This document shows, piece after piece, positions 5,320 through 24,339 of a stretch of 27,511 bases of DNA. A program made the translations under genes and the position numbers. The notes under the pieces are model-generated. The model was not told where the DNA came from. It saw nothing but the letters and a program-made list of their open reading frames with translations, and did not search any database. Each line of letters begins with the position of its first letter. The stretch's first letter is position 1. This stretch comes from a virus: positions 1 through 27,511 of the IMG/VR virus record IMGVR_UViG_3300030107_006010. One strand, 5' to 3'.

Positions 5320-5933
5320 AAGATAGTTTCAAGATAGATCAGATATTAGATTCACATCTTCAGGTTTTAAGGTCAGAAGATGATTCACTATCTTCTTTAA
5401 GTATTGCTAGTGAGGGTAATGGAGCTAGGGTGTCTGGTAATTTAGAGGTCACAGGAAGTATTGATTCTTCTGATGTACATGCAGGACAGATTCTTGGATA
5501 TACTTGCTTGTCAAATGATACTGCTGATAGTAGTTATTCTGTAACCACATCTTTTGTTACCATAAATAATGCTATAATAACATTTGTAGCACCTCCAAGT
5601 GGTAATGTTGAGATATTTGCGAGTGTGTTTTGTAAATGGACTACAAATAGATGGTTACAATTTGGATTGTCAGATAATGAAACTTATAATACAATAGATG
5701 TTACACATGAGCATTATGTTGCAGAGGGGGATGAAACAGACCATTATCAAATAAATCATCAATGGGTGATAACAGGATTGACAGCAGGATCATCTTATAC
5801 ATATTATTTTGGAGCAAAAGCAGAACAAGCAAGTAGGGTAACTTTACATTGGGGTGGGGATGCAACAGGAGAGTATGCTCCTTTTATTATGAAAGCAACA
5901 GCATTACCAAGAGAAATTTATGATGGAACGTAA
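5316..5933 (+). CDS. Beta-rich virion protein, fibre- or decoration-like
   Basis: A 205-aa protein. The first 60 residues carry a fibre-like leader (SGNLEVTGSIDSSDVHAGQ), a phrase frequent in trimeric tail fibres and surface proteins of marine phages. The remainder has alternating Thr/Ser/Val strands and aromatic residues typical of a jelly-roll or Ig-like beta sandwich (YSVTTSFVTINNAIITFVAP, HQWVITGLTAGSSYTYYFGA). No enzyme motif is visible. It overlaps the previous gene by ATGA. The place between capsid and connector genes suggests a capsid decoration protein or a head fibre rather than a tail fibre, but this is inference from order only. Confidence 0.6.
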   Translation: MKDSFKIDQILDSHLQVLRSEDDSLSSLSIASEGNGARVSGNLEVTGSIDSSDVHAGQILGYTCLSNDTADSSYSVTTSFVTINNAIITFVAPPSGNVEIFASVFCKWTTNRWLQFGLSDNETYNTIDVTHEHYVAEGDETDHYQINHQWVITGLTAGSSYTYYFGAKAEQASRVTLHWGGDATGEYAPFIMKATALPREIYDGT

Positions 5934-5942
5934 GGAGAGTAG

Positions 5943-6731
5943 ATGGCAGGGTTAAAAAATACTACAATATCAGGTGGATATAAAAGCCTTTTAAGAGTTG
6001 ATGATAATAGTGGAGTTACTGGAACAGCAGTAAGATGCACAGATGGTGATGGAGTTTCTTCTTCTATAAAAGTATCTAATAGTGAATTGATAGTTTATCC
6101 TTCATCTAATGGAAATGCATTGGAGGTAGATAATGCAAGTGGTAGTGAAAAGTTTAGAGTTAATACAACTATTCCTTATGTAAGGGCATTAGGTCATTAT
6201 GTAAATACTCAATATGCTTATTTTGGTGTTAATTTTAATGATTTTTCTCATCCTAGTGCGAATACTCATTATGCAATTCCATTTAGTTCAGGAGGTGGTG
6301 GTGCAAGTGCAAGTAATGATGTAGATTTTGGAACAGGTACAGATCCAGACACAACATTTACTACTGCCAACACAGATAGTCAGTATGCTGCTCAGTTAGT
6401 TCCTGTGATGTGGTTTGTTCCAGATGATATAACGATAGATAATGTATATGCTTTTGTAGGAGCTGATGATGCGACTGGAGATACAACAAGGATTCATTTG
6501 TTCCAATATACATTTACTTCAGGAAGTACAAGTGCATTATCCTCTGGTTCAGTTGTAGCACATAGTACAGCAGATACTACCAATGCAGGTAATGAGCAAA
6601 TTTATAAGACTACGCTAACTAAGGATGTAACAGATATAGATGCAGGTAAAGTAATATTAGCATTTTTTAGATCAGATAGTGTTAACTCAGATTATTCAAT
6701 AAATATAACAGTCAAGTACCATTTGAGATAG
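5943..6731 (+). CDS. Beta-rich virion protein with Gly/Ser linker, surface or fibre-like
   Basis: A 262-aa protein in three parts. An N-terminal beta-helix or repeat-like part covers about 1-80 (GNALEVDNASGSEKFRVNT). A glycine/serine linker lies at about 116-125 (SSGGGGASAS). A C-terminal beta-sandwich covers about 126-262 (VPVMWFVPDDITIDNVYAFV, then many Thr/Ser strands and a final NITVKYHLR). The C-terminal domain looks like a lectin-type jelly roll, though I cannot name a family. Ribosome site AAGGAGAG precedes the ATG. It follows another fibre-like protein with the same amino-acid style, so both may form one appendage on the head. Confidence 0.6.
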   Translation: MAGLKNTTISGGYKSLLRVDDNSGVTGTAVRCTDGDGVSSSIKVSNSELIVYPSSNGNALEVDNASGSEKFRVNTTIPYVRALGHYVNTQYAYFGVNFNDFSHPSANTHYAIPFSSGGGGASASNDVDFGTGTDPDTTFTTANTDSQYAAQLVPVMWFVPDDITIDNVYAFVGADDATGDTTRIHLFQYTFTSGSTSALSSGSVVAHSTADTTNAGNEQIYKTTLTKDVTDIDAGKVILAFFRSDSVNSDYSINITVKYHLR

Positions 6732-6738
6732 GAGAATT

Positions 6739-8340
6739 ATGGCAAAATTAACAGAAAGTTTAACAATACAGACAGGAACAGGGGAGTCGTTTAATTTCAA
6801 CTTTGCTGAAGATTATACTGAAGTATTTAATCTAAGGCAAAAAGTAGATAATAGTAATTCTTTTATTACTTTATTAACCCCTTCTACTACTATAGGGCAA
6901 TCATCTATTAGGAATGCAAAATCTATAGTTATAAAAAATGATGGTGAAGTTGGTACAGAAGTTCAGTTTAAAGTAACTGATTATGCTAATAACTCAAATG
7001 TAGATGATGCTAATTCAATAGATATTAGTGGTGATGGTGCAAGTACAACTAGATATATAACAACATTATTAGGTGCTGGTGAATATATGTTTTTACCTAA
7101 TGCAAGATGGGTTTCTTATGAGGATGATGCTTCTGCTGCTAATGCTAAACCTACTACAAATGGTGCTTATTTAACATTAACCTCAGATTTAGAAGTTGAT
7201 AGTGGAACTCTAATTAATCAGGCAGATTTTGAGGATGATAGTACAACTTTAACTGTAGATGATGGAGATTTGTTTGAGGTTGGAGATTTAATTCAAGTCG
7301 GTATAAATGATACGACTGCAACTAGAATAGAAGTTATGAGAGTTACTTCAATAGCAACTCATGTGTTAAGTGTGGATAGAGCTTTATATGGCACATCAGC
7401 AGCCGATAAAGATAGTCAGACAAATGCTACAAGTGGTGCAGTTAATAATGCTAAAGTATATTTCCCTATATTTAATACTTATGGAGATTATAATGATTTT
7501 AGTGTAGTGCAAACTGATGCTTCAGGAAGATTTGGTGTAAGTAACTTTTTTGGATATGGTAGAGTAGCAGATTCAACAGCAGATGGTATAGTTCCAGGAT
7601 CTGTTGCAGGTAAGTTTTATGAGCCAGGTTATCAATCATTTGGGTTAAAAGGTATTACTGCTTCTACAAATTCAGGTTTATCTGCTTCAACAACTTATTA
7701 TCTGTCTGTAGCTCTTAATGGTGGCACAACAGATAAGATTACATTTACAACTGATGCGAATAATACTAACTTTGGTGGTACTAATGGAGTAGTTCAAAAA
7801 TTACAAAATGCTATAAATGCATTGTATTATAATCCAGCTAAAAATGGATTCCAAGATGGAGCTTCAGTTGGAATAGTTAATGGAGATATTAGAATAACAT
7901 CTCATTCAAGACTATCTACTTCAGCAGTAGCAATAACAACTAATACTGATGGAACAGCAGGAACTGATGAGTTATTTGATGGATCTAATATTATTGGTAG
8001 AATACCTGTAAGTCCAGCAGGTGCTGTTTCTGCTAGATTACCAGATGATACAATTATTAATAGAGATGGTGTAACAGTTCCTAATACTGGTGTATTCTTT
8101 TATGATGATGGTCATGGAAATATCAAAGGAACTGCGACTGGAACTATTAATTATCAAACAGGAGCTATAGACTTTGTTGGAGAAGCTAATGCACAGTTTG
8201 CTATAACTGCAAATTATGATTCAGCACATGGTGGTGGTAATAATTCTGGAACTAATACACAGAATATGATTGTAGAAATATCTGCTAGGTCATGTAATAG
8301 TAAAATTAATTCTACTGTTGAAATAGTAGCATTTGATTAA
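6739..8340 (+). CDS. Large beta-rich virion protein, unknown
   Basis: A 533-aa protein, poor in Cys and rich in Thr, Ser, Asp, Asn and Gly, as in multi-domain phage surface proteins. The first 150 residues form one beta domain (SIVIKNDGEVGTEVQFKVTD; GAGEYMFLPNARWVSY). Residues about 160-230 contain a Hint-like or tube-like strand set (DDGDLFEVGDLIQVG, then EVMRVTSIATHVLSVDRALY). The C-terminal 250 residues include a segment also seen in tail and appendage proteins (FFYDDGHGNIKGTATGTINY, then GAIDFVGEANAQFAITANYD). I cannot assign a function. It could be a head fibre, a decoration protein or a structural adhesin. Ribosome site AGGAG lies just before the start. Confidence 0.6.
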   Translation: MAKLTESLTIQTGTGESFNFNFAEDYTEVFNLRQKVDNSNSFITLLTPSTTIGQSSIRNAKSIVIKNDGEVGTEVQFKVTDYANNSNVDDANSIDISGDGASTTRYITTLLGAGEYMFLPNARWVSYEDDASAANAKPTTNGAYLTLTSDLEVDSGTLINQADFEDDSTTLTVDDGDLFEVGDLIQVGINDTTATRIEVMRVTSIATHVLSVDRALYGTSAADKDSQTNATSGAVNNAKVYFPIFNTYGDYNDFSVVQTDASGRFGVSNFFGYGRVADSTADGIVPGSVAGKFYEPGYQSFGLKGITASTNSGLSASTTYYLSVALNGGTTDKITFTTDANNTNFGGTNGVVQKLQNAINALYYNPAKNGFQDGASVGIVNGDIRITSHSRLSTSAVAITTNTDGTAGTDELFDGSNIIGRIPVSPAGAVSARLPDDTIINRDGVTVPNTGVFFYDDGHGNIKGTATGTINYQTGAIDFVGEANAQFAITANYDSAHGGGNNSGTNTQNMIVEISARSCNSKINSTVEIVAFD

Positions 8341-8350
8341 GGAGTAAATT

Positions 8351-8437
8351 ATGCCATCTGGTAAAGGTAAATATGGTAGTAAGAATTTAAAACCTAAAAA
8401 AAGCAGAAAAGCTAAATATGGTAAAAGGAAAAAATAA
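8351..8437 (+). CDS. 28-aa lysine-rich peptide
   Basis: A very short gene with a strong ribosome site (AAGGAG, ending about 7 bases before the ATG) and a TAATG overlap with the next gene, both signs of real translation. The peptide begins MPSGKGKYGSKN and ends KAKYGKRKK. Of 28 residues, 14 are Lys or Arg and none is acidic. The word (G/A)KYG(S/K) occurs twice, so it reads as an imperfect duplication. Peptides of this composition in virions usually bind and neutralise packaged DNA, as the microvirus J protein does. Its place right before the connector gene fits an internal or DNA-contacting component. The function is inferred. Confidence 0.7.
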   Translation: MPSGKGKYGSKNLKPKKSRKAKYGKRKK

Positions 8438-9420
8438 TGGCAACAAGTAATATACAATATTGTACTCATAGAGATATTAAAGACACATATCCTGCTATAA
8501 ACGATAGTGGTGATTCTAAAAGACCTATATATGGATGGACAACCACAGATACAACAAATCAGTATCAAGCAAACAGTACAGGATTAATTACTCAATTATA
8601 TTTTGATGGAATAGAGGGAACTTCTGTAGGTGATAGTCCTAATGCTAATTATGAATTTAATTACTCAGCAAGTACAGATTCTGTTCAAGTATTTCTTACA
8701 ACAAGTGCAGGTGCAACTCTTAGCCCTAATGATATACTTGTAGAATCAGGGGATGATTTTGAAACATTAATAACAAGAGTAGCCAAAAGAGCATCAAGAA
8801 TGATTGATAGTAAGATTGGTTATAGAGTTACAGATACACAAATTAAAGATAGAGAAGGAAATTATCCAGATATTATTGTCCGAGCAGCAGCCTTACAATC
8901 TGTTATACTTCTCCTCACATCCGAAGATCCCACAAATCCCATTATAGAGCCGTTTAAAGAGGAATTAGCTGAAATAGTAGATGGTATCAACTCAGGTACT
9001 ATTGTTATATTAGGCAATCAGAGGACTATGGATGCTGCTAAGGGCATTATTAGAGAGGTTTCAGTAAATGCTTCTTCAGATTTAAGACCTGTTGAACTAA
9101 CAGGTAACTATACTGGTTCTGCTTATGAATTATTAAAAGTTTATATAGATAGTGGTGAAAATGGTGTTATAGGAACTACTAGAATGACAGTTAAAGGTAA
9201 AGATTCAACAAAATTAAAGAATAATGTATTGATAGATTCTGAAATTATTACAGGAGATTATCAGAGTTTAGGTTTGTCTGGTATGAAAATACGTTGGAGT
9301 GGAGATAATGATTCTGCTATAACTACTGCTAATGATGAATATGAGATAGAGTTATTTGGACACAATTTAGATTCATCAACTCCTGGACAAGTTGGTAATA
9401 TTAAGATGACGAGAAGATAA
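8437..9420 (+). CDS. Head-tail connector / head completion protein (candidate)
   Basis: A 327-aa protein. Residues about 100-185 form a helical domain with the pattern of HK97 gp6/SPP1 gp15-like adaptors: DDFETLITRVAKRASRMIDS, later IIVRAAALQSVILLLTSEDP and EEIAEIVDG-like helices. Such adaptors make a ring under the portal and extend the DNA channel. Residues 1-95 and 195-327 are beta-rich additions (for example DSEIITGDYQSLGLSGMKIR) not found in the minimal family, so the protein is larger than the usual 100-150 aa adaptors. It sits between head and tail genes and is followed by tail completion genes, which supports the call. Confidence 0.6.
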   Translation: MATSNIQYCTHRDIKDTYPAINDSGDSKRPIYGWTTTDTTNQYQANSTGLITQLYFDGIEGTSVGDSPNANYEFNYSASTDSVQVFLTTSAGATLSPNDILVESGDDFETLITRVAKRASRMIDSKIGYRVTDTQIKDREGNYPDIIVRAAALQSVILLLTSEDPTNPIIEPFKEELAEIVDGINSGTIVILGNQRTMDAAKGIIREVSVNASSDLRPVELTGNYTGSAYELLKVYIDSGENGVIGTTRMTVKGKDSTKLKNNVLIDSEIITGDYQSLGLSGMKIRWSGDNDSAITTANDEYEIELFGHNLDSSTPGQVGNIKMTRR

Positions 9421-9782
9421 TGTTTGAATATAAAGCAAAATTACTTAGAGTAGTAGATGGTGATACACTTGATTGTTTGGCTGATTTAGGATTTAACTGT
9501 CATATTAAAATCAGAGTTAGATTATATGGTGTAGATACTTGGGAAAGTAGAACTAGAGATTTAGAAGAAAAGAAAAAAGGACTAGCAGCAAAACAGTTTG
9601 TTGTTGACTTCCTTGAAGAAGGCTCATTTAACCTTATATCTCATGGAGTTGGCAAGTATGGTCGCTGTTTAGGAGAAGTTGTCTTAGATGGTGTAAATAT
9701 GAACGAAGAATTAGTAAAACATGGTCATGCATATAAATATCATGGTGGGAATAAAGAATTGGCTAGAAAGATGAATAAATAA
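9420..9782 (+). CDS. Staphylococcal nuclease-like (thermonuclease) enzyme
   Basis: This 120-aa protein covers the full SNase fold, a Ca2+-dependent sugar-nonspecific endonuclease of DNA and RNA. Key residues are all there: VVDGDT (D13 and D15 matching the Ca2+ ligand region), RVRLYGVDTWE (R34, D39, T40 and E42 matching R35, D40, T41 and E43 of the staphylococcal enzyme) and KYGRCLGEV (R82 matching R87). It has no signal peptide or membrane anchor, so it acts in the host cytoplasm or is carried in the particle. It is locked into the connector operon: its ATG overlaps the stop of the gene before and its stop overlaps the start of the gene after. Possible jobs are host DNA breakdown or DNA entry; neither is shown. 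Confidence 0.93.
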   Translation: MFEYKAKLLRVVDGDTLDCLADLGFNCHIKIRVRLYGVDTWESRTRDLEEKKKGLAAKQFVVDFLEEGSFNLISHGVGKYGRCLGEVVLDGVNMNEELVKHGHAYKYHGGNKELARKMNK

Positions 9783-10219
9783 TGCCTGTAACTTTCACAA
9801 ATAATTGGAAGAATATATTAGATAAAGTTCAATCTACTTTAAGGACTGAATTTGGTGGTACTGCACCTGTTTTTATAGGCAGAGCTGATGAGAGTGCAGG
9901 AAATCAGTATTTTAGGCTAGAACCTGCTTCTTCTGAGCTAACTGAGTTATATGCTGGTGGGGAGCAAAGAGAATTTACAATAAATATTTCCTTTTATTTT
10001 GATAGTAAAGAAATTGGTAAAAAGGAATATGATCATATATTAAGATTTGTTTCAAGAGCTGAAGCATTAATGCATGATAATATATCTATGGATTTAGCTG
10101 ACAATACACAATTATTTGATTGTAGAATGGAAACTTGCACATTAGATGCTGGTGAACCAGAAGATCCATATATAGTAGAATGGGAGTTTAATTGCTCTCA
10201 TATTGCAAATATAACATAA
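9782..10219 (+). CDS. Tail terminator / head-tail joining protein (candidate)
   Basis: A 145-aa alpha/beta protein in the slot where siphophages encode the tail terminator (lambda gpU-like) that caps the tail tube and joins it to the head. The layout fits: an N-terminal helix (NWKNILDKVQSTLRTEF), strands (APVFIGRADE; REFTINISFYFDSKE), a helix (YDHILRFVSRAEALMHD) and a last strand (YIVEWEFNCSH). This is the order seen in gpU/gp17-type proteins, which measure a target strand and a helix pair. No catalytic residues are apparent. The start overlaps the previous stop. The assignment is by size, secondary structure and gene order only. Confidence 0.6.
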   Translation: MPVTFTNNWKNILDKVQSTLRTEFGGTAPVFIGRADESAGNQYFRLEPASSELTELYAGGEQREFTINISFYFDSKEIGKKEYDHILRFVSRAEALMHDNISMDLADNTQLFDCRMETCTLDAGEPEDPYIVEWEFNCSHIANIT

Positions 10220-10230
10220 ATAGGAGAATT

Positions 10231-10416
10231 ATGAAAGTTAAAGGGTTAGCAGATAAATTAGAAAAGTTTAATGCTGTTGGTATGCCTTGCTCATCTAAAG
10301 AATTTAACGATTTAAGAGATGGCAAGACAATAGCATTATCAAAAGAAAATGCAGAACTAATGTCATCAATGGGATTGGTTGAAATAATAGAAAATAAAAA
10401 AATAAAGGAGAAATAA
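10231..10416 (+). CDS. Small charged protein before the tail tube gene, unknown
   Basis: A 61-aa basic protein (VKGLADKLEKFNAVG at the start, NKKIKEK at the end). The start at 10231 is chosen because TAGGAG lies 7 bases upstream; an in-frame ATG at 10192 would lie inside the preceding gene and lacks a ribosome site. The middle (PCSSKEFNDLRDGKTIALSK) resembles the short proteins with a 'hook' that contact tail tube subunits, but no family is recognised. The tail tube gene begins immediately after the stop, so both are made together. Confidence 0.65.
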   Translation: MKVKGLADKLEKFNAVGMPCSSKEFNDLRDGKTIALSKENAELMSSMGLVEIIENKKIKEK

Positions 10417-11526
10417 ATGGCTATAAGTGCAAAAGTCGTTCCCATTAGTAATGTTGTAGCAGGTATTAAAGCTGAATCTTCTTTTGGTGTAGGTATAGAT
10501 GTTACAGGAGATGAAGGTACAGCATTTAGACAACTACCAATAGTTCAAGTTTCTAAACCAACATTTAATGTTACTAGAGAATCAAGATTATTATCAGGGA
10601 GAGGACTTGTTAAAAATTCTAATGATACAATATTGAATTTAAGAGGTGGTACTGTAACAATGCCTTTTGATATGATAGCAACTCCAAAGTTGTTATCTCA
10701 ACATTTAGCATTGGTTTGTCAAGAACATAGTGAAGCTAGTAGTACAATACACACACATGAAATAGGTGGTCAAGGGGCATTACTAAGTTCATTAGGTGGT
10801 TCAAAAACTAATAATATACCACATACTGTTAATCTTGCTTATGAAGTAGCAGGAGCTGATTCAGGAGAAGGAATTAAAGTTACTGGAGTAGTGTGTTCTG
10901 ATCTAAGTTTAAGTTTAGATTATGGAACAAATGGTGGGTTTATGACCATGAGTGGTAATTACTTTAGTGGTTTTTCTAATCCTGTTTCAACAGGAAGTTG
11001 TTTAGAACAATCATTTTCAACAGGAAGTTGGACAGCACCTGAAACAACAGGATACTATAATATTGGGAATATATCAACTAAAACATTAACTTGTGATGAT
11101 GGAGCAACTCAAGATTTAATTTTGAAATCATTAAATATTAATATCGCTAATGGTGTTAATAGAGTTGGTTTTAATTCTAATGGTGATGCAGAAAGTTATT
11201 CTATTCCTGAGTATGTTGTTACTGGAGATTTAACCATTAAAATGGATGATAACTTTGCTTATGAAGGAGCAAGGAATGTTATTCAAGATTTTCTTGATGG
11301 TGATACATTACCTCTTGCTATTAATATTGGTGATGGAACATTGAGTTCAGTTGGTGAAGCTAATATGCAAATGAATATTCAATATACAGGTGATCCAGGA
11401 CAAGATGTGAGTGAAAGTGGTATATTCCATACACTCCCTTTTGAATGTGTATCAACAGGAGCATCAGATAATAATGAAGCATTTGAAATACAAATATTCA
11501 ATGGTGAATCACAGTCAGCTTGGTAA
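10417..11526 (+). CDS. Major tail protein (tail tube)
   Basis: A 369-aa beta-rich protein directly before the chaperone pair and the tape measure gene, the conserved place for the tail tube subunit. Recognisable elements are the N-terminal AGIKAESSFGVGID, a common opening of tube proteins of this type, the paired strands TVTMPFDMIATPKLLSQHLA, and SLSLDYGTNGGFMTMSGNYF, followed by a polar insertion (CLEQSFSTGSWTAPETTGYY). The C-terminal half repeats the same strand logic (DLTIKMDDNFAYEGARNVIQ, then LAINIGDGTLSSVGEANMQM), consistent with two fused beta-sandwich units. The subunits would form stacked hexameric rings around the tape measure. No sheath gene follows. Ribosome site AAAGGAG precedes the ATG. 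Confidence 0.8.
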   Translation: MAISAKVVPISNVVAGIKAESSFGVGIDVTGDEGTAFRQLPIVQVSKPTFNVTRESRLLSGRGLVKNSNDTILNLRGGTVTMPFDMIATPKLLSQHLALVCQEHSEASSTIHTHEIGGQGALLSSLGGSKTNNIPHTVNLAYEVAGADSGEGIKVTGVVCSDLSLSLDYGTNGGFMTMSGNYFSGFSNPVSTGSCLEQSFSTGSWTAPETTGYYNIGNISTKTLTCDDGATQDLILKSLNINIANGVNRVGFNSNGDAESYSIPEYVVTGDLTIKMDDNFAYEGARNVIQDFLDGDTLPLAINIGDGTLSSVGEANMQMNIQYTGDPGQDVSESGIFHTLPFECVSTGASDNNEAFEIQIFNGESQSAW

Positions 11527-11548
11527 TTAAAATAAGGAGTATTGGAAC

Positions 11549-11863
11549 ATGATAGAAAAGAAGTTAAAATCAGGAAGGAAAGTTAAGATTAGAGAATTAT
11601 CTGTGGATAAGATTGATGAGTTGAAAGACATTATCAAAATGAAATATCACAAAGATGGTTCTACTGTTGTGGAAAATCTTAATGTTGCAAGAACAGCTTG
11701 GATTAGAGCTGGACTAGGTGGTGGAGAGTTTAAAAACTGGAAACCTAATGGTGCATATCCTCCTGATTCTGTATTAAAGCAGTTATCTGATGTTGAAAGA
11801 GAAGAATTATTTGATTTAGTTCAATCTTCGCAAATAATGGGGGAAGAAGCTCCCTCCAACTAG
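11549..11863 (+). CDS. Tail assembly chaperone, short form (lambda G-like)
   Basis: A 104-aa protein whose place between tail tube and tape measure is that of the lambda G-type chaperone, which coats the tape measure before tube assembly. It has a basic start (IEKKLKSGRKVKIRELSVDK), a helical middle and an acidic end (SDVEREELFDLVQ). These traits match chaperones of many siphophages (the first strand LKSGRKVKIRELSV is typical). It terminates at TAG 11861-11863. Before that stop lies a slippery stretch (ATGGGGGAA) followed by a hairpin, and the -1 frame is open across it into the next frame. A fraction of ribosomes should therefore make a longer G-T fusion. Confidence 0.83.
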   Translation: MIEKKLKSGRKVKIRELSVDKIDELKDIIKMKYHKDGSTVVENLNVARTAWIRAGLGGGEFKNWKPNGAYPPDSVLKQLSDVEREELFDLVQSSQIMGEEAPSN

Positions 11864-11898
11864 GATTAAATGTCTTATTGGACAGTAGTTGTGAGGGG
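11837..11898 (+). promoter_or_regulatory. Programmed -1 ribosomal frameshift signal
   Basis: The slip site is the run of five G at 11839-11843 in ATG GGG GAA. A tRNA on GGG (11840-11842) re-pairs perfectly with GGG one base back, and the next codon becomes GGA (11842-11844). After a six-base spacer (GAAGCT) a hairpin follows: CCCTC (11852-11856) pairs with GAGGG (11893-11897), and CAAC (11857-11860) with GTTG (11888-11891), with one bulged T and a 27-base loop. The -1 frame is open from 11815 and runs to 12276. The frame direction, spacing and gene position all match lambda G/GT-type frameshifting. The exact slip codon is inferred. Confidence 0.82.
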
Positions 11899-12276
11899 TG
11901 TAATTATCATGAGTACCCCTATACGTTTCAAAATATATTAATTCATTCAGATGAACCTGCAATAACCATTAATAATAATGATGAATTGTGGGATTATATT
12001 TTAAAACTAAAAGAAGAAGCAGAGTTTGTTTCAAAATCAAGTACTTCGTTTGATATATTAAACAATATATACGAACAATTACCTTTTTTTGCATGTAATA
12101 AGAAAATATTAGACATGAATTGTCAGAAAGATATAGAAAAATATGTTTATTGCAAAGATACAAGCACACCTCCATATTCAGGATCATACCAAGATACTCC
12201 TAGTTTATGGATACATAAGTATTATACTATTAAGAGTGCTATGATTTTAAGAGATAAAAAATTGAAAGAAGGATAA
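11842..12276 (+). CDS. Tail assembly chaperone, T domain reached by -1 frameshift (G-T fusion)
   Basis: This frame has no ATG in its first hundred codons after the slip site; the only early start-like codon is a TTG at 11878 without a ribosome site. It should therefore be made as the C-terminal part of a fusion: 98 residues of the short form, then about 144 from here (GRSSLQLGLNVLLDSSCEGC onward), 242 in total. In lambda the T part recruits the tail tube while the G part wraps the tape measure; the same division is expected here. The T part has Cys/His clusters (CEGCNYHEYPY, later FACNKKILDMNC), which could bind zinc, an uncommon trait for this domain. It ends just before the tape measure ATG. 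Confidence 0.75.
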   Translation, partial: GRSSLQLGLNVLLDSSCEGCNYHEYPYTFQNILIHSDEPAITINNNDELWDYILKLKEEAEFVSKSSTSFDILNNIYEQLPFFACNKKILDMNCQKDIEKYVYCKDTSTPPYSGSYQDTPSLWIHKYYTIKSAMILRDKKLKEG

Positions 12277-14295
12277 ATGGCTGATCAACAAAAGATAGTA
12301 TTAGAATTAGAAGCTAAAACTAAGAAGTTATTAGCTCAGCTTAAAACAGTAAAAAAATCCATGAAAGGGGTAGATGATCAAACTAAAAAAATGAGAATCT
12401 CTACTTCTGGTTTAAGAAGGACTCTTGGTGCTTTAAGAAACAATATGCTACTTGTTTCATTTGCTTTTGGTGGAAGTGCTAAAGCTGTAGGTGCATTAAT
12501 AAGAGCTTATGGAGAACAAGAATTAGCAGAAAGAAAATTATCTCAGGCATTAGGATTTACTTCTCAAGCATTATTAACACAAGCATCTGCATTACAAGAA
12601 ACAACAACATTTGGTGATGAAGCTATTATAGGTGTCCAAGCATTAATTGGTGCATTTACTAAAGATGAAGAACAGATTAAAGAATTAACAAAAACTACTC
12701 TTGATTTAGCTGCTGCTAAAGGTATGGACTTAACTGCTGCTGCCGACTTAGTATCTAAATCTTTTGGTTCTTCTACTAATGCCTTGTCAAGATATGGAAT
12801 ACAAGTTGAAGGTGCAGTTGGATCTACAGAAAGATTAGAAAGCCTTACTGGTAATGTTGCTGATTTATTTGGTGGACAAGCAGCAGCACAAGCAGATACA
12901 ATGACAGGTTCTATTGAACAAATGAGAAATGCTGTTGGAGATACTGCCGAAAGCATGGGTGAAATATTTGAACCTGCTACAATAGCAATAACAAAGAGTA
13001 TAAAATCAGCAAGTGAAAAATTATCTGAGTTCTTTAACAAGCTAAACGAAACTGATATGGAAACTGTTGTTAGGCAATTAAGAGAGCTTGGAATGGCAGA
13101 AAGTGATCTAACTTTACTAGATAATATTATTAAGATAGAGGAGCATACTGAAAATTGGATTACTGCAAATGAGAGAATTATTTATTTATTAAGAAGGCAA
13201 GGGAAAGGTGTAAACAATATTAAGCACCAATCAAGAGAGCTGACACATCAAGAACTAGAGCTATTAGGTGTAAAAGTAGAATCTCTAACGAAGGATATAA
13301 CTTTAAGAAAAAGAAAAGTTGATGTTCAAAATGCAGATAAAGTTAATGAAGAAATAATTCAAAAGTTTATTTCTGATAGAGTAGGGTTGCTACAAGAACT
13401 TATTAAAGGTCAAGCAACTTTAAGTAAAGATCAGATAGAGAAGAAGAATCAATATTTAGCAGAAATAGATTTTCTTAAACAGATATTAGAAGCTGAGAAT
13501 CAAAGAGCTAAAGCTGGAAAAGCATTAGATGATGTTTATAATCCTCCAGCTACACCAGATCCAACTCCACCAACACCTGAAGAAATATTCCTTGAGCAGT
13601 TTGAAACATTTAAAGCTGAAAAAGACGTACAATTAGAGAAGTATGAGCATGAACAAGCACTAATAGCTATGTTGGTAGAAAAACATGAGGATTTGGCAAA
13701 ATCACTTGGTTTGGAAACAGATGCACAGAGAGATCTTAGGATAGAAAGCGAAAAAGCAGCAGTTGAGAAAAAGAAGGCAGCCGACCAAGCAGCAAAAGCT
13801 CATGAAAAAAGTACAAAATCAGTTACCAAAGATTTTATTAGAATTGGGAAACTTTATGGAGAAAATGCAGATCAAGCACAAGATGCAGCTGTTGACACTA
13901 TAGCTGGATATGCTGCTGAAGCTGCTGCATCTCAAATGACAAAAATAATTAAACAGTATCCATTCCCTATTAATGCTATTATGGCTGCTACTGCTGGAGC
14001 TGCTATCGGTCTAGGGATACAAGCATTATCAGCTCCTTTAAAAAGCAAAAAAGCTCAATATGGTATGGATGAAGTTGTAGATGAGCCAACTATGATTCTA
14101 GCAGGTGAAGCAGGAGCAGAACAAGTATCTATTACTCCTCTTGAAAGTCCTAATATTGATGGTGTTCAAGGTGGAGGTGCTTCTGTAGTAGTAAATGTGT
14201 CAGGGAATGTATTAACGTCAGATTTTGTTGAAGGTGAATTAGCAGAAAATATTAGAGAAGCAGTTCGTAGAGGAACAGATTTTGGAATTGGATAA
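12277..14295 (+). CDS. Tape measure protein
   Basis: A 672-aa, mostly helical protein placed after the chaperones and before the tail-tip genes. The N-terminus is a coiled coil (ELEAKTKKLLAQLKTVKKS) followed by a hydrophobic helix (about 55-75, NNMLLVSFAFGGSAKAVGAL). Residues 75-250 resemble the phage tape measure core (RAYGEQELAERKLSQALG; KGMDLTAAADLVSKSFGSS). Charged coiled coils follow, and a second hydrophobic segment (about 565-590, INAIMAATAGAAIGLGIQAL) could insert in the host membrane at DNA entry. The C-terminal sequence AGEAGAEQVSITPL is a frequent tape measure ending. Tail length scales with this protein; 672 residues at about 0.15 nm each would give roughly 100 nm. Confidence 0.93.
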   Translation: MADQQKIVLELEAKTKKLLAQLKTVKKSMKGVDDQTKKMRISTSGLRRTLGALRNNMLLVSFAFGGSAKAVGALIRAYGEQELAERKLSQALGFTSQALLTQASALQETTTFGDEAIIGVQALIGAFTKDEEQIKELTKTTLDLAAAKGMDLTAAADLVSKSFGSSTNALSRYGIQVEGAVGSTERLESLTGNVADLFGGQAAAQADTMTGSIEQMRNAVGDTAESMGEIFEPATIAITKSIKSASEKLSEFFNKLNETDMETVVRQLRELGMAESDLTLLDNIIKIEEHTENWITANERIIYLLRRQGKGVNNIKHQSRELTHQELELLGVKVESLTKDITLRKRKVDVQNADKVNEEIIQKFISDRVGLLQELIKGQATLSKDQIEKKNQYLAEIDFLKQILEAENQRAKAGKALDDVYNPPATPDPTPPTPEEIFLEQFETFKAEKDVQLEKYEHEQALIAMLVEKHEDLAKSLGLETDAQRDLRIESEKAAVEKKKAADQAAKAHEKSTKSVTKDFIRIGKLYGENADQAQDAAVDTIAGYAAEAAASQMTKIIKQYPFPINAIMAATAGAAIGLGIQALSAPLKSKKAQYGMDEVVDEPTMILAGEAGAEQVSITPLESPNIDGVQGGGASVVVNVSGNVLTSDFVEGELAENIREAVRRGTDFGIG

Positions 14296-17200
14296 ATGAA
14301 ATTACCACAAGTATTCGAACAAGATATATCAGCTAAGGATGTTCAATTAATCCCATTGTTGATTATTGAAAGGGATGATTGGATTACATGGTTTGATCCT
14401 TATTGGGAGGGTGGCTCGTCAGGAGGTTCTGGAGAAAGGTCGGACAAGTTATTATCTACACATCCTGTATACCTATCTCATGATGAATGTATAGAAAGTT
14501 CTCCTAATCCATATGGTGATAATGGATTCCCAGATGGTTTATATTTTGAGCCATTATTATTAGATAATCCTGTAATAACAGAAAAAATAGATGTTGAAAA
14601 TAGAAAATATACTATTTCTAAATGTACGTTTAAAATATCTAATACACCTTATAATGGTAAAAGATTTTCTGATATATTAGGGAAAGAATCTCTTATAGGA
14701 AGAAGAATAAGTTTTTGTTATAAGTCTATAAATAGTTTAGCTCCTATGTCCTCAGTTTATTTTGACCAAATATCTTTTGATTCTGACATTAATGCTTCAT
14801 TGGGAGATGTTTATGATCAGCATCCAAAAGTTAGTCCAACATTTTATATTGGCGAAATAAGAGAAATTGCACATGATGACAATGTTGTAACTATAACTGC
14901 TGAAGAATTAGGTGCTTCTCGTTTTCACCAACAGCTTCCAAAAAACAAATTACCAAATAATGATAGTGTTATGGATGCTTATAGGGGTGCTAGAATACCT
15001 ATGGTTTATGGTTATATGCCTAAATCTCCAGTAGTAGTTGGTGCTAATAAAAAAGTTTATGCTGACTCAAGACCAATATTGAGATTTTTTAGGAATTATT
15101 TAGATAAACCTGAAAGGTATGGGTATCCTTTTAATAGAGGATTAGCAACTCCTTCTAGTGGTAGTGGTGATTTTGGAGCTTTATTTATAGTAGTAGATGA
15201 CCATTATTGCTGTATAGCAGATACAATAGATTACAAATTAGGGGATAATAATTTTCCTAATGAAACAACTTCATTTTTTAATTTTGCTGATTACCCTGAC
15301 AATCCAACTCAAATCAAATATATTAATGATGATGTATATCCAACTATAGTAGCTCAATTTGCTACAACTCCATTATCGACAAGGTCTGTAGCACAATTAA
15401 TGGTTGTTTATAAACCTAGTAGAATAACTTTAGAAAGACGAGATCCTAATGTTGCATGGGATCAAGAATCAGCCACTATTAGTTTAGGTGATGGAGATAC
15501 AGGGTTTGGTGGTAGTGTTCATACAGATTCGAATGGACTGCCTATGGGTGGAGATCAATTAATTGAAGAAGAATTTGAATATATGACTGATGGCAGTTTT
15601 GAATCTACTCATACATTAGCATCTGCTGATATGGGTTTATCAAATAGAAGTGATGCTATGATTGCAGAGCCAGGCAATATAGAGCAACTTGAAAAAAATA
15701 TGTTTAAACATAGCCTGTTTAGGTTTGTTATAGAAACAGAACCTCCTATAGAGTTTATAAACAGAGGTGGTGCTTGTAGTCAAGCTGCTCAAGGTACATA
15801 TGCACATTGGATTGCATTTGGTCATTGGGTAATGCCAGAGCAAAGTATTAATCAAGCAGATTCAAGTAAAATTATATACACAGCAGCTAGAAGTGTAGGA
15901 TCTATAGGTGGAGAATTATCGCTTCTCAATAAAATTAGATACAGGTGGTGGCAGAGTGAAGGTGGATCTATTAATTATGAGTCATATTATTGGACATTAC
16001 TAACTGGAGGATATAATGATACATGGGGTAATGTTATTAAACTAGGAGATGTCGTAAGATTTTCCGATTATCATGATCATTCAACTTATGGAGAACATAA
16101 TCCAACACAAATTAACTGGGCATCATATGAGGTTGATGGAAAATCTCCATTAGAGCTTTATGATGTAAATCTTATTAATGAAACAGGTGATACTGCATGG
16201 GATAAACAATATTCTAATCCTTATGCAAAATTCGAAAATGATGCTGCAAATGGTAAATATCATGTTCATTTAGGGGTGTTTGGGTTTATGAGTGATTTAA
16301 CTCTTACATCAGAGAATACTAATAGTTTTACAGAACCTCCAGGTGAGGATAATACATCATATAATTTTGATTATCAAGCAACATTGAAAGGATGGTTGCC
16401 TGAAGTTACTTGTATGTCTGTTTGTGATACAAAAATCAATTATAAAGATATGTATGCAAGTGTGGAAGGTAGAATAGATTCTGCTGGTTATAGAATAATG
16501 AATCCTGTAGATATAATTGTTGATATTTTTGTAAATGAGTTAGGCTATCATCCTCGTAAAATAGATCAAAATAGTGTAAATAGTGCATTAGAATATCATT
16601 ACAATTGGAGGTTTGCATTTACTCAAAAAGAAGAAATTAATAGTAAAGATTTAATTGAAGATATTGCTAAATCAACATTTTTATTCCCAAGAATAGGTTT
16701 TGATGGAAAATTAAGATTAAACCATATTAAAACAACTTATGGTCTTGATGACAAACTTGCTTCTAATTATATTAATTCTGAAGATGTAATTAAATACAGT
16801 TATAAATTAACAAAAAAACAGGATTTGAGAACAGGTACTAATGTTAAATTCAATTATGACCATCATACTGAGAAATATTTTGGTGATAGTGATACTAAAT
16901 ATTATGGAGAAGATTTATTCGAACAAACTTTAGCTACAGAAGCACATTTAGATTATTATGGACTAGAAGATGTTGATAATCATATCAAAGATTTTGAATC
17001 AAAGTATATGAGAACTGATTTGTCTAGTGGCTCAGGTTTTAGTTCTTTAGCGATAAACAAATTTCAAGAAAGGTCTACTCATCACTATAGGAATAGACAT
17101 TTAATTATAAAATGCCAACTTCCATTAAAATATCTAAATATAGATGTTGGCGAATATATAAGGTTTTCCGAATTATTGGGTGGAGTTAGAGCATATGGAA

Positions 17201-18339
17201 TTAATTATGCAAATGGAATTGATTTAGTTAATGACCAATATTTATTCCCAATATTTATTTGTACAAGTGTTAAAAAAACTATTGAATATGTAGAAATAGA
17301 GTGTATGCAACTGCATGATTTAAGAGGTTTTGCTGCCGATATAACTCCTTTTACTGCATCTTGGGGAGATAATATTGATGAAGAATATGAGTTTGAGCCA
17401 GGAGATGAAGAAGAAGAACTTCCAGAAGAAGAAGAAGTATTCGAACCTCTTGTTCCTGAAGAAGGATTTGAAATTGGTTCTTTAAATCAAACAGCTTTTG
17501 CTTTTTGGGGTTTCGAATCAGTAGTAAGCTCCGATTCTGAATGGGATCTACCCTTCTTTGGAGGTATGTGGGATTTTGAGAATCAAATAGACCCTCAGTA
17601 TCAGATATTTTTTCAAGCACAGGAAGGTAGTGCTGCTCATACTGCAAATGGAGGTAATGCTCTAAACTTTAATGATGATAATGCAGGAGCAGCTCATGTA
17701 TTTCCACCATCAAATTTTAAGATTGTAGAAGGTGATGATTTAATCTCTGTAACAAGTTGGCAAGATTTAGTTCCACCTGAACACACAGAAGTAACAGTAG
17801 ACAATGTAAATTTAAAATTATTAGAGATTCAATTCATAATTGCAGATAATTCTGCATCTAATCCAACTCATATTGCAGTTCTTAGGAATGTTAATAGTCA
17901 GATTGGAGGAGAATTTCAGTTTGAATGGGAAGTAGAGGCTTTAGTTACAGGTAATAGTATATTTCAAATTGCTATAGGTGATTTGCCTGAACCTGAATTT
18001 CATGATCCGATAGGTCAAGATAATTGGACTAATTGGTATCACATGAATATGCTTAACCATACAAATCATGCATTAAAATATTCAACTGAGCATCAGGTGG
18101 TTCATAGTGATAGTGTGCAATTTACCTCTGAAGAAGAAGATCTTGGAGTTGTTTTAGGTGATGTAAATTTGGATGGAACATTTAATGCTCTTGATATTGT
18201 TGGAATGGTAGCTATTATACTTGGTCATGCTGAATTTCAAAATGAGATCGCAGAGTATGCAGCAGACTTTAACCAAGATGGTAGTCTAGATATTACAGAC
18301 GTTCTTACTGGTGTTAATCACATATTAGGGAATTTATAA
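14296..18339 (+). CDS. Tail-tip/central fibre protein with C-terminal dockerin-like domain
   Basis: A 1347-aa protein right after the tape measure, where siphophages encode the tail-tip and host-attachment protein (lambda J-like region). Residues 1-270 are the probable hub-contacting part. Residues about 740-1000 (DIIVDIFVNELGYHPRKID; TFLFPRIGFDGKLRLNHIK) look like the J/baseplate-hub core shared by many tail tips. At about 1034-1060 an acidic linker (EPGDEEEELPEEEE) separates a C-terminal beta-rich region. The last 60 residues hold two calcium-binding loops: D1289-N1291-D1293-D1300 (GDVNLDGTFNALDI) and D1324-N1326-D1328-D1332-D1335 (DFNQDGSLDITD). Each is followed by a hydrophobic helix ending in ILG, the type I dockerin pattern. 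The gene starts directly after the tape measure stop. Confidence 0.82.
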   Translation: MKLPQVFEQDISAKDVQLIPLLIIERDDWITWFDPYWEGGSSGGSGERSDKLLSTHPVYLSHDECIESSPNPYGDNGFPDGLYFEPLLLDNPVITEKIDVENRKYTISKCTFKISNTPYNGKRFSDILGKESLIGRRISFCYKSINSLAPMSSVYFDQISFDSDINASLGDVYDQHPKVSPTFYIGEIREIAHDDNVVTITAEELGASRFHQQLPKNKLPNNDSVMDAYRGARIPMVYGYMPKSPVVVGANKKVYADSRPILRFFRNYLDKPERYGYPFNRGLATPSSGSGDFGALFIVVDDHYCCIADTIDYKLGDNNFPNETTSFFNFADYPDNPTQIKYINDDVYPTIVAQFATTPLSTRSVAQLMVVYKPSRITLERRDPNVAWDQESATISLGDGDTGFGGSVHTDSNGLPMGGDQLIEEEFEYMTDGSFESTHTLASADMGLSNRSDAMIAEPGNIEQLEKNMFKHSLFRFVIETEPPIEFINRGGACSQAAQGTYAHWIAFGHWVMPEQSINQADSSKIIYTAARSVGSIGGELSLLNKIRYRWWQSEGGSINYESYYWTLLTGGYNDTWGNVIKLGDVVRFSDYHDHSTYGEHNPTQINWASYEVDGKSPLELYDVNLINETGDTAWDKQYSNPYAKFENDAANGKYHVHLGVFGFMSDLTLTSENTNSFTEPPGEDNTSYNFDYQATLKGWLPEVTCMSVCDTKINYKDMYASVEGRIDSAGYRIMNPVDIIVDIFVNELGYHPRKIDQNSVNSALEYHYNWRFAFTQKEEINSKDLIEDIAKSTFLFPRIGFDGKLRLNHIKTTYGLDDKLASNYINSEDVIKYSYKLTKKQDLRTGTNVKFNYDHHTEKYFGDSDTKYYGEDLFEQTLATEAHLDYYGLEDVDNHIKDFESKYMRTDLSSGSGFSSLAINKFQERSTHHYRNRHLIIKCQLPLKYLNIDVGEYIRFSELLGGVRAYGINYANGIDLVNDQYLFPIFICTSVKKTIEYVEIECMQLHDLRGFAADITPFTASWGDNIDEEYEFEPGDEEEELPEEEEVFEPLVPEEGFEIGSLNQTAFAFWGFESVVSSDSEWDLPFFGGMWDFENQIDPQYQIFFQAQEGSAAHTANGGNALNFNDDNAGAAHVFPPSNFKIVEGDDLISVTSWQDLVPPEHTEVTVDNVNLKLLEIQFIIADNSASNPTHIAVLRNVNSQIGGEFQFEWEVEALVTGNSIFQIAIGDLPEPEFHDPIGQDNWTNWYHMNMLNHTNHALKYSTEHQVVHSDSVQFTSEEEDLGVVLGDVNLDGTFNALDIVGMVAIILGHAEFQNEIAEYAADFNQDGSLDITDVLTGVNHILGNL
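18157..18336 (+). other. Dockerin type I-like domain (two Ca2+-binding F-hand repeats)
   Basis: Two 12-residue loops of the form D-x-(N)-x-D-G-x-x-x-x-x-D, each followed by a helix, are 35 residues apart and form the extreme C-terminus. Dockerins bind cohesins with Ca2+ in cellulosomes. Similar domains also end many secreted proteins of non-cellulosomal bacteria and archaea, where they serve as surface anchors. In a phage tail tip the domain would face outward and could be a receptor-binding or protein-docking part. The match to the loop pattern is seen directly; the partner is unknown. Confidence 0.8.
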
Positions 18340-19058
18340 TGATAGAATTATTACATTACAGAGATTCAATAATACTTTCAGAACCAGTTACTTGTTCTGC
18401 TATAGAGATAAAGTATAAAGGAAAGTTTATAGGGGAATCTAAGTTAGCCGATAATTGGTATGTAGGAACAGGAAGAAATAAAATACTATGTATTTCTCTT
18501 ACAGGAGATTCAGAAGTAACTGAATTGTTTGAATTTGCAGGTTCTTTTGCAATAATAGGTGCAAGAATTATAACACAAGAATTAGAAGAAATTACTCCTA
18601 ATTATAAAATATTAGATATAGACCTGTTCTCTGTATCAGAAGAAACTTTTGAAAATGGGGGTTCTTACTTCTCAGATTATAATTCAAGACATTTACCTAT
18701 TGATACAATAGAAGATACCGATATATACAAAAATAACCTCTTTACAGAACAAAATGAATTTTATTATGACAATGGTGATAATTATTTTGGAGAATATCAC
18801 CAACATTCGAATGGACAAGCTATGACAGAATCAATACATAATGCTGATTCTGTAAATATATATAGAAAAGATCAAAACAACAAACTACTACGACCAAAAG
18901 CTAAAAGATTAGCTGTTATTACAGATGATGATATGATGACTATTTCGAGAGATAAGGATGCGAAAATAAAAGGATTTCAATATCAATCTACTCAAAGCAT
19001 AAGGCAAGGAGAAGGTGGTGGAACAGGAGGTGGCTCTGGTGGTAGTGGTGGATATTAG
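18339..19058 (+). CDS. Tail protein with glycine-rich C-terminus, unknown
   Basis: A 239-aa protein overlapping the stop of the tail-tip gene by TAATG. Residues 1-110 form a beta domain (TCSAIEIKYKGKFIGESKLA; NKILCISLTGDSEVTELFEF). The centre is rich in Tyr, Asp and Asn with a His pair (YYDNGDNYFGEYHQHSNGQA). A basic stretch follows (NKLLRPKAKRLAVIT), and the last 17 residues are almost only Gly and Ser (GEGGGTGGGSGGSGGY). A free glycine-rich end is seen in some adhesion tips, such as the Gly-rich motifs of T-even gp38, but here there is only one tract. I infer a tail-tip accessory or adhesin. No enzyme motif is visible. Confidence 0.6.
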   Translation: MIELLHYRDSIILSEPVTCSAIEIKYKGKFIGESKLADNWYVGTGRNKILCISLTGDSEVTELFEFAGSFAIIGARIITQELEEITPNYKILDIDLFSVSEETFENGGSYFSDYNSRHLPIDTIEDTDIYKNNLFTEQNEFYYDNGDNYFGEYHQHSNGQAMTESIHNADSVNIYRKDQNNKLLRPKAKRLAVITDDDMMTISRDKDAKIKGFQYQSTQSIRQGEGGGTGGGSGGSGGY

Positions 19059-19067
19059 GAGATATTT

Positions 19068-20228
19068 ATGGCAGTAGGGAATCAAGCTGAGAAGCCTCGT
19101 TTTTTTATAGATTTATTAAATTATAATTATCATATAGGTAATATTCTGGGATTAGGATTTCATGATGCATCTAGTAGCGATCCTGGAGTAGCAACTCGAT
19201 TAATAGGATTTCAGCCTTATAATAAATATATGAGTCCTTCAACTATTGAACAATGGAAATCTATAGTAATAAGATTTAAAGATCCAATATCTATACCTAA
19301 AAGTGATATGTTTATTTCTTGTTTAGCACATGATTTCGCAAAATTTAATCATCAGTTTCAAATTGGATTTTTGCCTGTCCAAGAAGGTTATGAAGCAGGA
19401 TTAGCAGGTGATAGTGTGGACTACATTAATAAATGGGAAACACTTGAAGATATATGTAATAGCACAGGTGGTAGTTATATTGGTATTCCTGAATTTAATG
19501 GATGGAGTATTTCTAAATTTACTCCAGGCGAAACAGAAGAAACTGTACAAGAAAGAATTGGAGGAATAAGAATACTAATAAGGAATGGTAATTTTAATGA
19601 AGATAGTCCTTCATATTGGGGATGGCATTTAGGAGGAATTGGTATTGGCATGATATACGAACCTGAATTCCATGCAGACCTCGCTGTAACACAAAGAAGA
19701 ATTATGGATGGTGTTAAGCAAAAACAAACTAAAGGTGGTTCGACTTATTCTGTTATAAATCATATTAAACCTCCTAACTGGTGGAATAGCACACCATTTG
19801 AGCTATATCCTGCAAATCAAACTGGATTTAAATATAAAAACTCAAGATTAGGTCGTAGAAGTTGGGATGTAAGATTTAGCCAACTACAAGATAGGTTTTA
19901 TACAGATGGTGTGCCTAATGGTGTATTCCCAGCTAATGAGCTAGTAGGTACACATGAAGCAGATACAGTTAATGGTGGTTACTCATCAGATAAAGATTAT
20001 GATTCTGAAACAGGAGATTTTAACTATAATATAAATAATGATAATTCACTATATGGCACAGTATATCATAATACTTTAAATGGAACATTACCATTCTTAT
20101 TTTCTCCATCACAAGATAATTCTCCTGGAAATTTTGCAATATGTAGATTTGATAAACCAGGATTCCAAGTGCAACAAAAAACATACAAGAAGTTCAACGT
20201 AAACATGCGAATAAACGAAACTTGGTAG
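19068..20228 (+). CDS. Tail or receptor-binding protein, unknown
   Basis: A 386-aa, aromatic-rich protein (many Trp, Tyr, Phe) that is the last gene of the virion block. Features are NYHIGNILGLGFHDASSSD near the start and a Trp/Gly-rich centre (SYWGWHLGGIGIGMIYEPEF) like a beta-sandwich lectin domain. A more basic second half follows (SVINHIKPPNWWNS; GRRSWDVRFSQLQ). The gene before it has the same orientation and ends 9 bases upstream, with a ribosome site TTAGGAG. Its place behind the tail-tip genes and before the terminator suggests a receptor-binding or side-tail protein. No family is recognised. Confidence 0.6.
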   Translation: MAVGNQAEKPRFFIDLLNYNYHIGNILGLGFHDASSSDPGVATRLIGFQPYNKYMSPSTIEQWKSIVIRFKDPISIPKSDMFISCLAHDFAKFNHQFQIGFLPVQEGYEAGLAGDSVDYINKWETLEDICNSTGGSYIGIPEFNGWSISKFTPGETEETVQERIGGIRILIRNGNFNEDSPSYWGWHLGGIGIGMIYEPEFHADLAVTQRRIMDGVKQKQTKGGSTYSVINHIKPPNWWNSTPFELYPANQTGFKYKNSRLGRRSWDVRFSQLQDRFYTDGVPNGVFPANELVGTHEADTVNGGYSSDKDYDSETGDFNYNINNDNSLYGTVYHNTLNGTLPFLFSPSQDNSPGNFAICRFDKPGFQVQQKTYKKFNVNMRINETW

Positions 20229-23299: not shown

Positions 23300-23410
23300 A
23301 TGACAGATGAAATGTACAATCTACTCTATATAATTGAAACTTTAACACAATGTATGCTATATATATTCTTGTGTATTACTTGTTGTGTTTGGATTAGGAG
23401 GGGTAAATGA
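23300..23410 (+). CDS. 36-aa membrane micro-protein
   Basis: After a polar start (MTDEMYNLLYIIETLTQ), residues 18-32 are hydrophobic with four Cys (CMLYIFLCITCCVWI), followed by the basic end RRGK. This follows the positive-inside rule for a single helix with the C-terminus in the cytoplasm. AGGAG lies upstream and the stop overlaps the methyltransferase start (ATGA), so both are translated together. No known family. Confidence 0.55.
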   Translation: MTDEMYNLLYIIETLTQCMLYIFLCITCCVWIRRGK

Positions 23411-24339
23411 ATGTAAATTTATTTGGAGAAGTGATAGAAGAAAAAACTGAATTGAAAAAAGAGTTCATAATACCACCATTTTCAATTTTTGATACTGCAA
23501 GTGGGGATTGGCAAAGTAGAAAAAATAGATGGAAGTCAATAGGATTAAAGAGTGAAATAGGTAGAGAAAACAGCAATTCTAATCAAAGAATGACATCTGA
23601 TGGGAAAATGATTGGATTAAAATCAAAAAAAACATCTGCTATAAGATTAAGTCCAGTTGGAGAAGATATTACAAAAGACCCCTACATATCTATATTTGAC
23701 CCTGTTTTATGTGAGGTGATATATCATTGGTTCTGCAAAAAACAAGGAAATATACTTGACCCATTTGCAGGTGGTAGTGTTAGAGGTATAGTTGCTAATT
23801 ATTTAGATTATCATTATACTGGAATTGAATTAAGAGATGAACAAGTATTATCTAATGAAACACAAGGATTAGATATTGTTCCAAATAATATTCCTGAATG
23901 GATTATAGGAGATAGTAATAAGGAATTAGATAAAATGGATAGAGCATTTGATTTCATATTTAGTTGTCCTCCATATTATGATTTAGAGGTGTATTGTGAT
24001 GACCCTAATGATTTAAGTAATATGGATTATAATTCATTTAATAAGGTTTATGAATCAATTATCGCAAAATCTTGCAAATTGCTAAATAACAATAGATATG
24101 CTTGTTTTGTTGTTGGGAATTGTAGAGATAAAAATGGATATATGATGGATTTAGTAGGTACAACAATAAGAGCATTTGAAAAAGCAGGGTTGAAATTTTA
24201 TAATGATATAATATTAAGAAATCCAGTTGCAAGTGCAAGTATGAGAGCAAAGGGTAATATGACTTATAAAAAAGCAGTAAAAGTGCATCAAAATGTATTG
24301 GTTTTTGTTAAAGGAAATCCAAAAGAGATAGTGATTTAA
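23407..24339 (+). CDS. DNA methyltransferase (N6-adenine or N4-cytosine), orphan
   Basis: A 310-aa enzyme. The S-adenosylmethionine motif I is DPFAGGS (118-124) and the catalytic motif IV is CPPY (187-190, in FSCPPYYDLEVY). Motif I comes first with a short distance, so the order is of the gamma/alpha type. The N-terminal 100 residues (PPFSIFDTASGDWQSRKNRW; LSPVGEDITKDPYISIFDP) form a module common in phage methyltransferases of the ParB-linked group, here without a ParB domain. The first motif IV residue is Cys rather than D, N or S, which makes the target base uncertain. No restriction enzyme gene is near; it likely modifies phage DNA against host restriction. Confidence 0.88.
   Translation: MNVNLFGEVIEEKTELKKEFIIPPFSIFDTASGDWQSRKNRWKSIGLKSEIGRENSNSNQRMTSDGKMIGLKSKKTSAIRLSPVGEDITKDPYISIFDPVLCEVIYHWFCKKQGNILDPFAGGSVRGIVANYLDYHYTGIELRDEQVLSNETQGLDIVPNNIPEWIIGDSNKELDKMDRAFDFIFSCPPYYDLEVYCDDPNDLSNMDYNSFNKVYESIIAKSCKLLNNNRYACFVVGNCRDKNGYMMDLVGTTIRAFEKAGLKFYNDIILRNPVASASMRAKGNMTYKKAVKVHQNVLVFVKGNPKEIVI

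Follow-up and report, generated by a model that had tools for sequence, protein, structure and literature searches.

A type I dockerin at the C-terminus of a predicted tail hub in a family of marine siphophages, and its possible role in attachment to host cohesins

The window analysed here is a 27,511-nucleotide stretch belonging to a 32,407-base IMG/VR virus record, and within its tail module lies a gene for a 1347-aa protein (14296..18339, + strand), placed directly behind a gene for a tape measure protein (12277..14295, +; PHROG 27166 tape measure, 4e-10). The stop codon of the 1347-aa gene is overlapped by the start of a gene for a 239-aa protein (18339..19058, +), which has 25–30% identity in G003–G006 and G008, and this is followed by a gene for a 386-aa protein (19068..20228, +), a conserved neighbour by synteny in which no cohesin was recognised using hhalign. 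From its open reading frame, its predicted fold in Foldseek searches, its position behind the tape measure and synteny we annotate the 1347-aa protein as a tail hub or tail-tip protein. Its C-terminal half comprises a hub core conserved in the family (residues ~720–1020; 16453..17355, +; from identity to relatives and alignments A3–A6), an acidic linker (residues ~1030–1060; 17383..17475, +) read from the translation, an extra region of ~220 aa (residues ~1061–1280; 17476..18135, +), and a dockerin type I domain (residues 1287–1338; 18154..18309, +). The linker and the separate region had been described in the original prediction and both are present, with the beta-rich character proposed for residues ~1061–1280 suggested by sequence and a low-confidence model; this region has no match in Pfam or the PDB, and its one viral match is in an 87% identical relative (L002).

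Dockerins are small calcium-binding modules, which bacteria normally use to attach proteins to cohesins. The Pfam PF00404 (Dockerin_1) profile gave the domain in the 1347-aa protein a score of 31.3 bits, above its cut-off of 22.9 (E 2.4e-7 over all of Pfam), and the score in our genome search was 36.8 bits. The D-x-N/D-x-D calcium loop occurs twice, as loop 1 (DVNLDGTFNALD, residues 1289–1300; 18160..18195, +) and loop 2 (DFNQDGSLDITD, residues 1324–1335; 18265..18300, +), with a helix behind each copy in both the sequence and an AlphaFold2 model; a sub-threshold FG-GAP match in Pfam coincides with loop 2. In a sequence search of the PDB the best matches were the XynY dockerin chains 2ccl and 1ohz (E 2e-4). 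Likewise, when residues ~715–1347 were modelled with AlphaFold2, three dockerin helices were predicted at pLDDT 79–86 (positions 584–594, 603–609 and 619–629 of the modelled stretch), and Foldseek superposed the domain on 2ccl_B, a dockerin solved in complex with its cohesin, with a TM-score of 0.86 and an rmsd of 1.4. The dockerin of another family member, L128, gave a TM-score of 0.89 to the same chain, with rmsd values of 1.4–1.5 across the two models. The domain is also retained in L002, where position 9 of loop 2 is changed from D to A. Profile, loops and predicted fold together confirm that the C-terminus is a type I dockerin, with both calcium loops laid out as originally described, and it may bind a cohesin in a calcium-dependent manner.

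Apart from the dockerin, the protein belongs to no family in Pfam, PHROGs or NCBIfam, no relative of the whole 1347-aa protein was found among GenBank phages, and the best matches of the window terminase were below 32% and came from phages of many hosts. A profile search of the PDB with the hub core likewise returned no sequence match, but fold searches did match tail tips. The AlphaFold2 model of the window C-terminus had low confidence outside the dockerin, yet the same tail-tip targets stood near the top of its Foldseek results, and we therefore modelled L128, using a 13-sequence alignment and covering hub core, linker and dockerin. This gave a mean pLDDT of 76.7, with the core mostly at 80–95, the linker below 50 and the dockerin at 70–84. 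The L128 core matched the tail tips of lambda, T1, Chi, JBD30 and T5 (E 3e-9 to 2e-6, probability 1.00), the lambda and T5 chains being those which we take to be J and pb3. Because of these matches the 1347-aa protein is identified, at the level of predicted fold, as a central tail hub of the gpJ/pb3-like kind from a small family of uncultured marine siphophages, which agrees with the tail-tip location first proposed for it. Such a hub would presumably form a trimer at the tail tip and expose its dockerin on the virion.

Searching viral contigs for dockerins yielded three more hub proteins that end in one (L016, L017 and L034), and the window hub core has 26–31% identity to these and 48% to L010. 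As a search with dockerins selects for them, we also used an alignment of the hub core only (A3) as the query. This found four further proteins (L124, L125, L127 and L128), all four of which end in a dockerin; a second hub-only scan (A6) added no new family member. Altogether, wherever the C-terminus is intact the hub protein ends in a dockerin (9/9), even where hub identity falls to ~28%; three more relatives cut by a contig end were left out of this count. Since L127 and L128 are 99% alike across the stretch that was modelled, eight of the nine count as independent. A chance match to dockerins was ruled out by the Pfam E-value of 2.4e-7, the fold match and the 9/9 family members. The L128 stretch has an identical counterpart in UniProt (A0A516LCZ1, over 396 columns), and at least one family sequence is therefore already deposited.

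The family shares a gene order of terminase, portal, capsid-side genes, tail tube, tape measure, hub, a ~200-aa gene and a ~350–440-aa gene, with the last two kept beside the hub in every contig that covers them. Each record has a single dockerin, and the hub is its sole carrier in these phages. The extra ~220-aa region between linker and dockerin is confined to the window and L002; in the other seven intact members a short, mostly acidic linker is all that lies between hub core and dockerin. Three prophage-like relatives at Neomarinimicrobiota loci (L134, L135 and L139) are free of a dockerin and end at "..IQLHDLS" or close to it, which coincides with the start of the linker in the phage family. 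Since these relatives stop at the end of the hub core, the dockerin is a module added to the hub, as the original prediction had suggested, and it is fixed in this hub family.

In comparing the window with L002, we found that nonsynonymous differences outnumber synonymous ones by 26.5 to 2.5 in residues 1061–1347 (17476–18336); the corresponding figures for five other genes are 102 and 117 (Fisher p 1e-6). For this single sequence pair, however, the excess is marginal against neutrality (p 0.05) and against the rest of the hub (p 0.08). The excess fits fast change at an exposed tip, with relaxed constraint as the alternative reading of this one pair. Elsewhere in the same comparison, the tail tube gene (10417–11526) is 55% identical where most neighbouring genes are 87–100% identical, and is likely to be a swapped gene. 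The window also encodes a DNA methyltransferase (23407–24339) whose N-terminal stretch is ParB-like and which is missing from L002.

To place the hub dockerins among bacterial ones, we built a profile from eight of them and applied it to dockerins of Neomarinimicrobiota, Bacillota, Bacteroidota and Planctomycetota. The median score was 56.8 bits for Neomarinimicrobiota (n=22, all from genomes G012 and G013, in which 86 and 69 dockerins were counted at E 1e-3), compared, in four other sets, with 35.2 for Bacillota, 34.8 for Bacteroidota and 27.0–29.5 for Planctomycetota. The Bacillota and Bacteroidota sets and one Planctomycetota set had been preselected for similarity to phage dockerins, and the comparison is therefore conservative. 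The same grouping was seen at loop positions 10–11, which in the XynY dockerin are the S-T pair that contacts cohesin, the residues mutated in 2ccl. [IV]L occupies these positions in 11/16 hub loops (69%), 22/36 Neomarinimicrobiota loops (61%) and 24/44 loops of a second phage group described below, against 0–2% elsewhere (0/70 in Planctomycetota, 2/86 in Bacillota and 0/16 in Bacteroidota). The window's own positions are A-L and I-T, unlike this majority. By sequence and recognition residues the hub dockerins thus appear to be of host type, resembling those of Candidatus Neomarinimicrobiota as sampled from two genomes, which bears out the suggestion that the domain is a host clue.

These residues also bear on the reading that the C-terminal pair of EF-hands has no cohesin partner and serves as a cap or trimer lock stabilised by calcium. 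The calcium loops are conserved, in favour of such a cap, with single ligands varying, as in loop 2 of L002; however, positions outside the metal sites are group-specific and a flexible linker parts the dockerin from the hub, and we regard a cap as very unlikely.

Several lines of evidence point to the same phylum as host, all of them subject to the caveat that contigs in genome bins can be contaminants. In one Neomarinimicrobiota genome, an 8.5-kb contig bears a relative of the terminase and portal, with ~40% identity in the terminase, and hub relatives were found in 5/245 Neomarinimicrobiota genomes versus 1/241 of Planctomycetota. The nuclease gene of the window (9420–9782) is 57% identical to one on a phage-like contig of a Neomarinimicrobiota genome. 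Furthermore, GC content is similarly low, at 31–34% in the phages and 27–32% at two host loci. Searching for host matches at the DNA level with the window's first 12 kb revealed nothing that convincingly resembled a spacer, the best matches being to the nuclease gene and not to the hub. The host is most likely a Candidatus Neomarinimicrobiota cell, an assignment that this evidence supports without proving.

Dockerins were also observed in a second, unrelated phage group (viral contigs L013–L041, up to 113 kb), where they form the C-terminus of trypsin-like proteases (L015:4077-5417, L026:4074-5411 and L006:5065-6321; Pfam Trypsin ~1e-60). In these proteins the N-terminus is lipobox-like and the dockerin is of the type found on the tail hubs, and they could possibly be displayed on the surface of the infected host; L006 of this group additionally has DNA polymerase and clamp-loader genes. 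The staphylococcal-nuclease-like gene of the window (PF00565, 5e-12), which within the hub family is present in the window, L002 and L003 only, is ~58–64% identical to a nuclease that lies close to the trypsin-dockerin gene in the second group, a degree of identity that we read as gene exchange between unrelated dockerin-bearing phages. Two other phage-contig proteins have a dockerin, one of 2182 aa that contains it (L162 of G020, ORF 5878-12423, −) and one of 1195 aa that ends in it (L163 of G018, ORF 4195-7779, −). In G008 we also noted two diverged copies (36–43% identical) of a 262-aa/533-aa gene pair (L140 1-2148 and L141 14789-17128), near both ends of one 37-kb contig.

The original prediction proposed a search of host-like genomes for cohesins, and these were present in 150/244 Neomarinimicrobiota genomes at E 1e-3, 135 of them over the Pfam cut-off. 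Two of the proteins (L171 and L175) are of ~182 aa and consist of an N-terminal lipobox and a lone cohesin, and lone-cohesin frames of ~173–185 aa recur in many Neomarinimicrobiota genomes (these two and about 20 more), making this short protein a candidate conserved cohesin anchor of the phylum. Four others (L172, L173, L174 and L176), from genomes of 0.7–0.9 Mb, have a PKD-PKD-cohesin arrangement with a lipobox. The lipoboxes were read by eye, and as predicted lipoproteins these proteins may be exposed at the cell surface or could face the periplasm. A sorting tail for type IX secretion was also found on cohesin proteins, by profile in L132 and by eye in L166–L170 and L177.

A cohesin as the target of the dockerin is plausible, with these proteins as concrete candidates, and the binding itself is what we infer. 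In the mechanism we propose, the C-terminal end of the hub, which in lambda J is the receptor-binding part, would have gained a host-type dockerin. A hub trimer would be expected to hold three copies below the tail tip on flexible acidic linkers, kept folded by the calcium of seawater, and each could plug into a cohesin on a host surface protein, most likely of Candidatus Neomarinimicrobiota. Docking on a host cohesin would make the dockerin a receptor-binding or first-attachment module; the likely host phylum has cohesins on lipid-anchored proteins, so the phage may attach by exploiting the host's own dockerin-cohesin surface assembly. We give about even odds to the reading in which a dockerin of host type has taken the place of the hub's receptor-binding end and docks onto a cohesin of the host. 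The more specific version, in which the dockerin at the hub tip is host-derived and docks a lipid-anchored Neomarinimicrobiota cohesin, so that this cohesin is the phage receptor and the dockerin its receptor-binding module, is more tentative. Calcium binding, cohesin binding and a receptor role are in each case what the domain's type and place would suggest.

Host proteins with cohesins could instead be captured without serving as receptors, the dockerin holding released enzymes or scaffold pieces within the surface matrix for reversible pre-adsorption or particle attachment, and not for a committed contact with the receptor. Neomarinimicrobiota cohesins occur also on the secreted proteins with type IX sorting tails, and the trypsin-like predicted lipoproteins of unrelated large phages indicate that dockerins have other uses in phages too. 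Against this, the dockerin of the family occurs on the hub only, once per record, at the very place where lambda's hub binds its receptor, and we consider non-receptor capture unlikely.

A further reading keeps the dockerin within the virion, as an internal clip that holds a second phage protein, such as a side fibre or adhesin and perhaps the 239-aa or 386-aa protein, through an unrecognised cohesin-like fold. Self-assembly is the known use of dockerin-cohesin pairs, and the two downstream genes are conserved beside the hub in all covering family contigs. However, none of the window proteins scanned with Pfam resembled a cohesin, and comparing the ORF families of the window and the rest of the contig with seven host cohesins by hhalign gave nothing convincing, in a search that missed one of two control cohesins, so that a diverged phage partner is possible. 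The best phage match, at the C-terminus of the tail tube (E 0.008, 5% probability), is more likely to be an Ig-like domain. The recognition residues of the family also match host dockerins, which better fits a shared host partner. Within this limited sensitivity the phage showed no recognisable cohesin-like protein, so the original alternative of an extra adhesin held on the tail is less favoured, and we think the internal clip doubtful.

In the open literature, with most subscription papers lying outside the search, no account of a phage tail tip bearing a dockerin came up. Two phage papers (PMC5967307 and PMC3558961) mention dockerins without placing one on a tail hub: Gp02 of phage HSE2 was compared to a carbohydrate-binding module linked to a dockerin (2WZ8), and in VvAW1 the dockerin is a BLAST note for gene 40 at a putative attachment site. 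If docking on a host cohesin is correct, it would represent a novel type of contact between phage and host, made from a known and very tight protein pair, would name a testable receptor class for an uncultured ocean phylum, and would give the many non-cellulosomal cohesins of Neomarinimicrobiota a role as seen from their predators. The dockerin signature could also help to assign viruses to Neomarinimicrobiota from sequence alone.

The predicted hub shares with lambda gpJ, T5 pb3 and the Chi and T1 hubs a hub-core fold, a gene behind the tape measure and a long C-terminal extension, which in the window ends in a dockerin, whereas lambda J ends in its own receptor-binding fibre. Its dockerin in turn shares two calcium loops and three helices with cellulosome type I dockerins (Clostridium thermocellum XynY, 2ccl/1ohz; TM 0.86–0.89). 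The XynY dockerin is borne on an enzyme and has S-T at the recognition positions, in contrast to the phage domain, which is borne on a hub and has mostly I/V-L in the family, and A-L and I-T in the window; it would probably not be bound by the cohesins of cellulosomes. Dockerin-cohesin pairs outside cellulose breakdown are reported in bacteria and archaea in the passage of PMC9012536 that cites Peer et al. 2009, and non-cellulosomal dockerins and cohesins are described in ANME and their partners (PMC9012536, PMC10553843). The candidate host phylum belongs with these non-cellulosomal systems, to which the phages add the case of a dockerin on a structural protein of a virus; the new element is a known dockerin in a new place on a known type of hub.
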